From an uncultured Pelagibacteraceae bacterium (GTDB lineage: Bacteria > Pseudomonadota > Alphaproteobacteria > Pelagibacterales > Pelagibacteraceae), in NCBI GenBank assembly GCA_902590625.1, contig CACIXL010000001.1, forward strand, positions 1 through 64,000: a stretch of DNA of 64,000 bases. Direction: 5' to 3'. Of the stretch, positions 16,460 to 51,972 are shown one piece after another (position 1 is the first letter of the stretch; every line of letters starts with the position of its first letter). Below the pieces are notes generated by a model that had not been told where the DNA came from, ran no database searches, and was given only the letters and a program-made list of their open reading frames with translations. A program made the position numbers and the translations under genes.

Positions 16460-17040
16460 TTTTTTAATTGTTTAATATAGTTAATGATTTCCTTGATAGG
16501 TAGACCCATAATTGAGTCTTTGTCTCCATTGACATATTCGAATAACTTTAATCCATCTGCCTCTATTTGATAAACGCCATAGTCTAACAACGTTTTTGTT
16601 TCAATTTTACTCAAATATGAAGATAATTCATCATCACTTAAATTCTTCATTTTAAGTTCTGAGGAATCTGTGTAATTCCATACCATTGATCCGTTTTTAG
16701 TAATACATGCTGAACTAATTAATTGATGTTTTGAATTATTAAGTTTTTTTAAAATAGCAAATGCTTCATTTCTAGAATTTGGTTTATTGATCAATTCTTC
16801 ATTAAATGAGATGACGCTGTCAGCTCCTAAAACGTAACGATCTGGATTTTTATTACTTATTTTTAAGGATTTAATTTCAGCAAGATTTTTTGATATGAGA
16901 AGAGGATTTGCTCCTTCAGCTAATAAAGACTCTTTAACTTCGTCTTCATCAACGTTTGATGCTATGACTTCATTGTCTATGCCATATTTATCTAAAATTT
17001 GTTTTCTTACCCCACTTTTGGAGGCTAAAATTATTTTCAT
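16456..17040 (-). CDS. maf: Maf family nucleotide pyrophosphatase
   Basis: IILASKSGVRKQIL, VLGADSVISF, LDYGVYQIEADG, MGLPIKEII. Confidence 0.94.
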   Translation of the reverse strand: MKIILASKSGVRKQILDKYGIDNEVIASNVDEDEVKESLLAEGANPLLISKNLAEIKSLKISNKNPDRYVLGADSVISFNEELINKPNSRNEAFAILKKLNNSKHQLISSACITKNGSMVWNYTDSSELKMKNLSDDELSSYLSKIETKTLLDYGVYQIEADGLKLFEYVNGDKDSIMGLPIKEIINYIKQLKK

Positions 17041-17855
17041 TTATTTTTCTTAATCTCAATAATTTTTAATATCGAAGCAGCAGTTTCTTCTACGGATCTT
17101 CTAGTCACATCAATTATAGGCCAATTATTTCTCTTAAATAAATTTTTTGATTCTTCAACTTCTTTTTTAATAGAATTTAAATCAGTATATTCTTTAAGAT
17201 TTTGATCTTTCATAATAGCAACTCTATTACGTCTTATATCTGATAGTCTTTCAGGGTCAGCTACTAACCCTATTATACAAGCAGTTTTATTTACCTTTAG
17301 ATCTTCTGGAATTTTTTGATCCAAAACTAATGGTATGTTTACAGTTTTATAACCTCTATTCGCTAAATAAATGGAGGTGGGTGTTTTACTGGTTCTGCTC
17401 ACTCCTAAAAGAACTACATCTGCATTATTAATATCATCTACTTTTTTTCCATCATCGTGGGTCATTGTAAACTGTATAGCCTCAATTCTTTTATAATAAT
17501 CATCGTCTAAGACATGTTGGGCGCTTGGTTTATGAATCGCTTTTTGATTAAGAAGCTTTGAAAAGCTTAAAATTAGATTTCCTAATACACCGAAACACGG
17601 CACTAAATTTTTTTCACTTTGACTGGCAAGATATTTTGCTAATTTTGTTTCAACAATCGTATATAATATAATTGAATTCTCAAAATGGTTGCATTCTTTG
17701 ATAATTCTATCAATTTGTTGCTCTGTTCGAATAAAAGCAAATTCTTTTTTTTCATACTCAAAATTAGCAAATTGTGATTTCAGAGATAAAAAGATTCTAT
17801 CTAAAGTTTCACCCGTTGAGTCAGACACAAGATATACATTGTATTTTTCGTTCAT
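17037..17855 (-). CDS. ppsR: PEP synthase regulatory kinase/pyrophosphorylase (DUF299 family)
   Basis: VYLVSDSTGETLDRI, VLLGVSRTSKTPTSIYLANRGYKTVNIPLV, WPIIDVTRRSVEETAA. Confidence 0.95.
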   Translation of the reverse strand: MNEKYNVYLVSDSTGETLDRIFLSLKSQFANFEYEKKEFAFIRTEQQIDRIIKECNHFENSIILYTIVETKLAKYLASQSEKNLVPCFGVLGNLILSFSKLLNQKAIHKPSAQHVLDDDYYKRIEAIQFTMTHDDGKKVDDINNADVVLLGVSRTSKTPTSIYLANRGYKTVNIPLVLDQKIPEDLKVNKTACIIGLVADPERLSDIRRNRVAIMKDQNLKEYTDLNSIKKEVEESKNLFKRNNWPIIDVTRRSVEETAASILKIIEIKKNK

Positions 17856-18125
17856 AACATTGTTAATAAAATATTAATTAATTAATGTTTTACATTTTAA
17901 GTTAAAATTATAAAAAATAATCAACATCAATTAACATTATTTAAACATTTTATTGAATGTTGATAATAGGGTTTTTTAACTGTTTATAAAACTAATAAAG
18001 TCTCTAAAATGAATAATATTGATAAAACTTATAAACTTCATCATGTATAAAAAATGTATAATTCGTTATATAACTAATTAACAGGACCTAGAGCATAAAT
18101 TACACTTATAAAATTTTATTATTTA
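17856..18125. other. Candidate chromosomal replication origin region (ppsR/hemE intergenic)
   Basis: 270 bp, extremely AT-rich, divergent ppsR and hemE. Three exact TTATNAACA 9-mers on the minus strand (17861-17869, 17958-17966, 17981-17989) plus near-matches at 17918-17926 and 18029-18037. Same gene neighbourhood as described alphaproteobacterial origins. Confidence 0.6.
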
Positions 18126-19130
18126 ATGAGTAATCTTAAAGAAATATTGATGAATAAAAAAAATTGTAAATCAGTTTGGTTTATGAGACAAGCAGGTCGC
18201 TATTTGCCTGAATTTAGAAAAATAAGATCACAAAACCCAAATTTTATAAATTTTTGTCTTAATAGCAAACTAAGCTCCGAAATTACTTTACAACCTATAA
18301 AAAGGTTTGACCTGGATTCAGCTATAATCTTTTCGGATATACTCATTGTACCTTATGCTTTAAACCAGAATGTAGAATTTATAAAAGATAAAGGACCAAA
18401 GTTAGAAAAATTTAATATCGAAAATTTTTTAAAGAATGATGAAAACAGTTTTATAAAAAGGCTCAATCCTGTTTATGAGGCAATTAAAATGACAAGAAAA
18501 AATCTACAAAAGGAAAAGTCTTTAATTTCTTTTGTAGGTGCTCCATGGACACTATTAGTTTATATGATTGGTGCTAAATTAAATAAAAATGAAATTAATT
18601 TTGAAATAATTAAAAAGAAAAAAAAAGAAATTGAAATAATTTATAATAAGTTAAACGATTACCTTTGCATACATATTAAAAATCAAATAAAAGCTGGCGC
18701 CGATGTAATACAAATTTTTGATTCTTGGGCTGGATTAATACCACCAAATGAACTGGACAGACTTTGCTATAGACCAAATTTTAGGATTGTAGAGTTTTGT
18801 AAAAAAAATAAAATTCCCGTTATTTGTTTTCCTAGAGGAATTAAAGAAAATTATAAAGACTTTAACAATTTGATAAAGCCCGACGGAATAAATATTGATT
18901 ATAGTATTGATCCTTATTGGGCCAAAGAAAATCTTAAAGATACAGTAATTCAAGGCGGATTAAATCCAAAAATTCTATTATTATCGAACAAGGAAATTTA
19001 TAATAATGTAAAAAAATATTTAGACGCATTCAAAGGATTGCCTTATGTTTTTAATCTAGGACATGGTATGTTACCAGAAACAAACCCAGAAAAAGTAGAT
19101 AAACTAGTAAAATTTTATAGAGAATATTAA
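18126..19130 (+). CDS. hemE: Uroporphyrinogen decarboxylase
   Basis: KSVWFMRQAGRYLPEFRKIR, GAPWTLLVYMI, GGLNP, FNLGHGMLPETNPEKV. Confidence 0.98.
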   Translation: MSNLKEILMNKKNCKSVWFMRQAGRYLPEFRKIRSQNPNFINFCLNSKLSSEITLQPIKRFDLDSAIIFSDILIVPYALNQNVEFIKDKGPKLEKFNIENFLKNDENSFIKRLNPVYEAIKMTRKNLQKEKSLISFVGAPWTLLVYMIGAKLNKNEINFEIIKKKKKEIEIIYNKLNDYLCIHIKNQIKAGADVIQIFDSWAGLIPPNELDRLCYRPNFRIVEFCKKNKIPVICFPRGIKENYKDFNNLIKPDGINIDYSIDPYWAKENLKDTVIQGGLNPKILLLSNKEIYNNVKKYLDAFKGLPYVFNLGHGMLPETNPEKVDKLVKFYREY

Positions 19131-50475: not shown

Positions 50476-51972
50476 ATGAGCAGTTTAAAAATGCCAAAAG
50501 TTGATAGTTCAATCTTATCTAAAAAAGATAAGATTCTTTCGGATATTGAAAAAATCATTGATCCGAAAAATGTACTATCACACACAGATGAAATCAGGCC
50601 TTATGAAACTGATGCCTTAGCGGCATACAAGCAAGCTCCTTTACTCGTTGTTTTACCTGAAACAGTGAAAGAGGTTAGTGAGATTTTAAAATACTGTAAT
50701 GATAATAAAATAAAAGTAGTACCTAGAGGTGCGGGAACTGGTTTGTCTGGTGGATCGTTGCCATTGGAAGATTGTATTTTATTGGCAATGGGAAAATTCA
50801 ACAAAATTTTAGAATTAGATTATGAAAATAGATGTGTGGTTACTCAGCCTTGTGTAACTAATTTGGCTATTACACAAGCCGTTCAAGATAAAGGTTTTTA
50901 TTATGCTCCTGACCCATCGAGTCAAATAGCATGTTCAATTGGAGGCAATGTGGCCGAAAACTCAGGCGGCGTTCACTCTTTAAAGTATGGAGCGACAACA
51001 AATAATTTACTAGGTATCGAAGTGGTTCTTATGGATGGAACAATAACAAGATTTGGCGGCAAGGCTATGGACGCGGAAGGTTATGATTTTCTTGGACTAA
51101 TGACAGGCTCAGAGGGTTTACTAGGTGTTATGACAGAAGTAACAGTAAAAATTTTAAGAACGCCCGAAGTTGTTAAAGCAGCGTTAATTGGATTTCCAAC
51201 AATAGAAGATGCCGGAAATTGTGTTGCAGAAATTATTGCTCAAGGATGTATCCCGGCGGGCATGGAAATAATGGATAAAGCTTTAACCAAAGCAACTAAT
51301 GATTACTCTAAAGCTGGCTACCCGACGGATGCCGAAGGAATGATGATAGTGGAGTTTGATGGCACAGAGCACGAAGTCAATGCATATATAGAAAAAGTAA
51401 AAAACATTGCAGAAAAAAATAATTCCTCAAGTTTAAAAATAAGTAAATCTAATGATGAAAGATTAAAATTCTGGGCAGGAAGAAAAGCTGCATTTCCTGC
51501 TTGTGGAGTTTTAGCACCAGATTATATGTGCATGGATGGATCTATACCTAGAGGAAAATTAGCGGAAGTGTTGAACGAGATAACAAGATTGTCAAAAAAA
51601 TATAATTTGCCGGTAGCCAATGCTTTTCACGCAGGAGATGGAAATCTTCATCCTCTAATTATGTTTGATGCAAATGATCCTGAGGAACTTAAAAAATGTG
51701 AAGAATTTGGTGCGGATATATTAAAGTATTGTGTGAAAGTCGGTGGAGCTTTAACCGGAGAACATGGGGTTGGAATTGAGAAAAGAGAATTAATGTGTGA
51801 AGCATTTAATGATAAAGATATTCAACAACAACTTACAATTAAAGTTGCACTAGACCCTAATTCTCTTTTAAATCCTGGAAAGGTATATCCAATTCTTAGA
51901 AAATGTGCTGAGGAAGGAAGGGTTCATGTCCATGGAGGAAAAACAAAATTCCCAGACATTCCTAGATTTTAA
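50476..51972 (+). CDS. glcD: Glycolate oxidase subunit GlcD (FAD-linked oxidase)
   Basis: RGAGTGLSGGSLP, PDPSSQIACSIGGNVAENSGGVHSLKYG, FHAGDGNLHPLIMFD, GGALTGEHGVGIEK. Confidence 0.96.
   Translation: MSSLKMPKVDSSILSKKDKILSDIEKIIDPKNVLSHTDEIRPYETDALAAYKQAPLLVVLPETVKEVSEILKYCNDNKIKVVPRGAGTGLSGGSLPLEDCILLAMGKFNKILELDYENRCVVTQPCVTNLAITQAVQDKGFYYAPDPSSQIACSIGGNVAENSGGVHSLKYGATTNNLLGIEVVLMDGTITRFGGKAMDAEGYDFLGLMTGSEGLLGVMTEVTVKILRTPEVVKAALIGFPTIEDAGNCVAEIIAQGCIPAGMEIMDKALTKATNDYSKAGYPTDAEGMMIVEFDGTEHEVNAYIEKVKNIAEKNNSSSLKISKSNDERLKFWAGRKAAFPACGVLAPDYMCMDGSIPRGKLAEVLNEITRLSKKYNLPVANAFHAGDGNLHPLIMFDANDPEELKKCEEFGADILKYCVKVGGALTGEHGVGIEKRELMCEAFNDKDIQQQLTIKVALDPNSLLNPGKVYPILRKCAEEGRVHVHGGKTKFPDIPRF

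Follow-up and report, generated by a model that had tools for sequence, protein, structure and literature searches.

A candidate SAR11 replication origin between ppsR and hemE, with putative DnaA boxes shifted from C to A

The closest described systems to the locus considered here are the Caulobacter crescentus origin Cori and the Rickettsia prowazekii ori, which share its flanking genes, divergent gene layout, AT-richness and several DnaA-box-like sites (PMC1914354). These origins exceed 400 bp, whereas the SAR11 gap spans about 270 bp. The SAR11 gap also differs from them in carrying A at box position 6, with no CtrA found and no IHF-consensus site. The literature searched did not describe any SAR11 origin at the level of sequence.

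The window analysed is a 64,000-nucleotide stretch of an uncultured Pelagibacteraceae genome, whose assembly comprises 754 kb in 35 contigs and is 70% complete. For this reason, closed relatives served for the whole-chromosome tests. The gap between ppsR and hemE is 270 bp long and has a GC content of 16% (84% AT, compared with 61–75% in 2-kb stretches of the window). The first-pass annotation had described an AT-rich gap of this length between the two divergent genes, and profile matches for both genes confirm it (Table 1). The window's ppsR is 75–94% identical to that of Pelagibacteraceae single-cell genomes, and 90% identical to that of the isolate HIMB058. When the gap was examined for RNA families, no credible match was found. 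The gap very probably serves this SAR11 genome, a relative of HIMB058, as its single chromosomal oriC.

Table 1. Features in the window and the basis for each
Feature	Coordinates	Strand	Basis or remark
gidA/mnmG, cut by contig start	12..866	-	PF01134; last gene at this contig end
ppsR (Kinase-PPPase, DUF299/COG1806), left flank	17037..17855	-	PF03618 4.6e-91; NCBIfam NF003742 above cut-off
Candidate oriC	17856..18125	none	Conserved gap; inversion/strand-bias axis and parS/parB proximity in relatives
Box 1, TTATTAACA (plus strand TGTTAATAA)	17861..17869	-	TGTTAATAA exact in 60/81 gaps of genus
Half-box 2, TAATCAACA	17918..17926	+	Conserved block, genus alignment
Half-box 3, CAATTAACA	17928..17936	+	Conserved block; 10 bp from box 2
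Half-box 4, ATTTAAACA	17939..17947	+	Conserved block; 11 bp from box 3
Box 5, TTATCAACA (plus strand TGTTGATAA)	17958..17966	-	Conserved TGTTRATAAT block
Box 6, TTATAAACA (plus strand TGTTTATAA)	17981..17989	-	Conserved TGTTTATAA block
Near-match TTATAAACT	18029..18037		Coordinates checked
Two TGTATAA repeats, 11 bp apart	18044..18061	none	Highly conserved in genus
hemE-side box, TAATTAACA	18075..18083	+	Candidate platform box of unwinding module; orthologous boxes in relatives
GG spacer, CTA (18088-18090; 3'-GAT-5' on other strand), AT-rich stretch	18084..18125	+	Candidate DnaA-trio/unwinding region
hemE, right flank	18126..19130	+	PF01208 4.3e-86; TIGR01464 above cut-off

Box-type repeats and the C-to-A shift

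The three same-orientation copies and the near-matches TAATCAACA and TTATAAACT listed in the first-pass annotation are all present at the positions it gave. It overlooked the plus-strand half-boxes, whose ACA ends fall at 17926, 17936 and 17947 (10–11 bp apart), as well as the hemE-side box. The gap contains three matches to TTATNAACA, where its dinucleotide shuffles predict 0.15 (P ~0.001). Nowhere else do three of the genome's 91 matches fall within 270 bp, and the genome-wide Poisson expectation for three within 129 bp is ~0.011. A general excess of TTATNAACA was ruled out, both across the window (7 found, 9.3 expected) and across the 754-kb genome (91 matches, against 118 for a reversed control); the local cluster alone is meaningful.

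Canonical TTATNCACA boxes are absent from the window's gap. A canonical cluster elsewhere in the same genome was also rejected, as its 24 matches are scattered, with at most two within 300 bp. The paired TGTATAA repeats are among the most conserved gap bases in the genus and have no DnaA-box match.

The proposal to count TTATNAACA genome-wide and in orthologous gaps yielded both a local cluster and enrichment among relatives. Observed and shuffled counts per gap are 2.21 and 0.14 in genus g1, 3.00 and 0.16 in g2, 2.34 and 0.17 in g3, 2.50 and 0.12 in g4, 2.25 and 0.10 in g5, 1.00 and 0.17 in g6, and 0.36 and 0.08 in family f2. Enrichment is thus 14- to 23-fold in five of the six genera (g1–g5) and ~6-fold in g6. 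Comparison among relatives shows the location of the putative origin and the conservation of its boxes.

Pooled TTATN?ACA sites from the window's genus have A in 179 cases, T in two, C in one and G in none, so that C6 has been replaced by A, and not by T or G. Since C-to-T change, the usual AT-ward drift, is nearly absent, composition alone does not explain the A. At the box 1 position, the sister genus g6 reads TGTGGAT, while most of the window's genus reads TGTTAATAA. In the window's genus, 78 of 81 gaps have an A-type hemE-side box; among g3 gaps, 25 of 35 are C-type and 10 are A-type. The orthologous hemE-side box alternates between TTATTCACA and TTATTAACA within g3, and is CCACA-type in L278 and family f2. 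On the ppsR tree, this box has undergone at least seven C/A changes, three of them in g3 (a handful of the boxes were typed by eye). An unbiased tally of bases directly preceding the nearest ACA yields 78 A and 3 C for g1, and for g3 it yields 24 C, 7 A and 3 T. Canonical boxes are present in the gaps of g3 and g6. The strongest argument for the A form being a DnaA box is this C/A interchange at a single site. Because most g3 copies of the hemE-side box retain C, the proposed shift approaches completeness only in the window's genus and the relatives nearest to it.

The DnaA protein of this genome scores above the TIGR00362 cut-off. Alignment of its domain IV to that of E. coli (1J1V) shows RDHTTV-HA intact; the recognition helix is RDHTTVIHA, the same as in E. 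coli, and the motif RDHTT[VI]IH is kept in 14 relatives. In studied DnaA proteins, deviation from TTATNCACA lowers affinity (PMC5043019). A canonical helix combined with such loss of affinity favours weak, cooperatively used boxes. The idea of lineage-specific C-to-A boxes is supported by the enrichment in g1–g5 and the same-site interchange, but the unchanged helix makes weak boxes likelier than a shifted specificity. The A-type boxes are likely to be DnaA sites, and are probably weak ones rather than the product of a re-specified code.

An alternative is that the gap is oriC, but that its TTAAC repeats bind some other factor, either CtrA-like or a nucleoid protein. We consider this unlikely, even though C is the base that the DnaA helix leads one to expect at position 6 and TTAA-N7-TTAAC is enriched in the gaps of g1 and g5 (0.64 and 1.00, respectively, against 0.03). 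Repeats spaced 10–11 bp apart can themselves yield a CtrA-like pattern, and the swapping of C and A at a single orthologous box, whose TTAT...ACA frame is preserved, points to DnaA. Control by CtrA was rejected, as Pelagibacter lacks ctrA (PMC2877005) and the 70%-complete genome yielded a single OmpR-type regulator, whose score of 94.5 is far below the CtrA cut-off of 350; no CtrA was found in that genome. The gap has a single TTAA-N7-TTAA match, at 17863, which we do not read as a CtrA site. The IHF consensus WATCAANNNNTTR is absent from the gap and shows no clear enrichment in the gaps of relatives.

Conservation of the gap and its place on the chromosome

The gap itself is maintained across the order.

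In 138 distinct relatives, the orthologous gap is AT-rich and measures 258–289 bp (353 bp in g2). In genomes that are ~94–95% coding (PMC2031905; also computed in this analysis), such constancy of length points to a role for the gap in its own right. In family f2, which lacks ppsR at the gap, maf and hemE are still 271–280 bp apart, and in genus g2, which lacks hemE, hemH and hemJ there, ppsR and rho are still 353 bp apart. The gap might instead comprise only the back-to-back promoters of ppsR and hemE, with the repeats as AT-rich regulatory sites. The flanking genes do diverge, and promoter-like matches number 9, against 4.1 (sd 2.2) in shuffles. However, the gap persists at ~275 bp without ppsR (f2) and at 353 bp without hemE, hemH and hemJ (g2), and is therefore not merely a promoter pair; it also lies on the replication symmetry axis, near parS. 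We regard the promoter explanation as highly improbable.

Several further observations concern the flanks. In g2 (L274 of G001 and L275 of G007), only a remote hemE match (29–30%) occurs elsewhere. In f2 (L263–L273), hemE has maf as its neighbour across the gap, with no ppsR there; a search of two f2 genomes (G002 and G008) gave no PF03618 match. hemE is split into two frames at G117:C1:358209-359203, G040:C5:73513-74506 and G100:C2:55163-56150, through frameshift or assembly error. The drafts G047, G052, G082, G098 and G008 (92–96% complete) are without hemE and ppsR, possibly owing to an assembly gap at the origin. GANTC is scarce in the gaps of g1, g3, g5 and f2 (0–0.12 per gap, against 0.66–1.33 in mononucleotide shuffles).

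The reading of the gap as oriC also draws on chromosome-wide asymmetry. The closed relative G003 (1,199,990 bp) was analysed whole. When the terminus is held diametrically opposite the origin, the gene-strand bias of G003 peaks at 66–67 kb, and the gap lies at 66.98 kb; the unconstrained minimum falls at 92–97 kb, and the unconstrained minima of strand bias and GC skew are 25–31 kb from the gap. The gap is also the only four-copy TTATNNACA cluster in G003. Inverted orthologues between G003 and G009, G025 and G013 have median centres at -4.9, +0.8 and +27 kb from the gap, respectively. The corresponding correlations of distance from the gap (0.849, 0.990 and 0.964) are within 0.003 of their maxima, which occur within 15 kb of the gap.

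Cumulative GC skew, put forward earlier as a check, gave a mixed outcome. In sampled skew, the G009 optimum brackets the gap, that of G025 lies within about one sampling block, and G013 is diffuse (best 48 kb, gap at 234 kb). In G003, analysed whole, the minimum, at 98 kb, is 31 kb off (bootstraps mostly 62–130 kb, with a tail to 266 kb). The window's own skew does not dip clearly at the gap and was discarded as an origin locator.

Partition elements lie nearby. A near-perfect parS is found 7.3–19.7 kb from the gap in all 10 closed genomes of known length, and parS lies 7–33 kb away in three further genomes. The product of chance fractions is ~2e-18, which is indicative only, as the genomes are related. 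All seven genomes with a parB match carry it 10–34 kb from the gap, and in five members of the window's genus parB is ~20 kb away on the ppsR side (subtracted from hemE positions). The window starts inside gidA, and its gidA protein is 79.6% identical to the gene adjoining parS in L303, so a parS for the window would be expected immediately beyond this end of the contig. A two-mismatch parS candidate at 50649 was rejected, being inside an FAD-oxidase gene and without CACGTG. In g1 (G029, G031, G046, G058, G065, G072 and others), every member checked has parB, but parS, when two mismatches are allowed, is either degenerate or escapes detection; TATTTCACGTGAAAAA, near parB in G086, is a degenerate example, while the sites of g2–g5 are near-perfect.

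Taken together, strand asymmetry, mirror inversions, parS/parB and coarse GC skew in closed relatives converge on the ppsR/hemE gap, where the first-pass annotation had placed the origin. That the true origin lies elsewhere in the region, for example at dnaA, 61–86 kb away, is scarcely credible: the G003 skew bootstraps do spread over dnaA and one SAR11 study begins its genome alignments there (PMC12421898), but symmetry correlations fall from 0.85, 0.99 and 0.96 at the gap to 0.80, 0.92 and 0.95 at +60 kb, none of the top box clusters in G003 is at dnaA, and dnaA switches sides from one lineage to another while staying about as far from the gap, as near-origin genes do.

Predicted initiation and known counterparts

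The hemE side of the gap is the candidate site of unwinding. Across six clades, the last 55 bp before hemE contain 1.8–4.0 CTA per gap, against 0–0.3 TAG. Clear CTA repeats can be seen by eye in L270, L278 and L116, with L270 running ACTACTACTACTAC and then TATATATATATT. The window's own gap has one clean CTA only, and its trios are degenerate; we infer its unwinding module from these relatives. The BUS module of Bacillus subtilis and others consists of a DnaA-box, a spacer and DnaA-trios (PMC8287927), the criterion being three or more trios (3'-NAN-5') no farther than 16 bp from a DnaA box. Many relatives are alike in having a hemE-side box followed by CTA repeats and AT-rich DNA. The window differs from the module in its AACA-type box and degenerate trios, and unwinding here is only predicted.

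In the mechanism we propose, DnaA would load on TTATNAACA-type boxes, derivatives of TTATNCACA with C-to-A at position 6. The loading array would comprise the three inverted copies and the three half-boxes spaced 10–11 bp apart. DnaA would then reach the hemE-side box and extend over the CTA/trio-like, AT-rich DNA as far as 18125. This stretch would melt, and replication would leave in both directions. Binding, melting site and order of assembly are all put forward here as predictions.

A broader proposition, that a SAR11 lineage has shifted almost all of its origin to C6-to-A DnaA boxes with the DnaA helix unchanged and without CtrA, is one that we doubt as much as we believe. If true, this origin would depend on DnaA sites that are weak throughout, or that are read in a different way, and that were selected together with an extremely high AT content. 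The shift under an unchanged helix would offer a natural test of how DnaA boxes are read, and of initiation control without CtrA. An exact, order-wide origin could also serve as an anchor for methods such as those of PMC9589681.

The location is ordinary for the class, following the alphaproteobacterial rule; what is new is the C-to-A box chemistry and the CtrA-free layout. Sub-consensus boxes read by a canonical DnaA helix are familiar from the G and W boxes of Caulobacter and the low-affinity sites of E. coli. The SAR11 gap resembles these weak sites in pairing such boxes with a canonical helix (PMC5043019). It differs from them in that a single substitution, C6 to A, is common to nearly every box of the genus.
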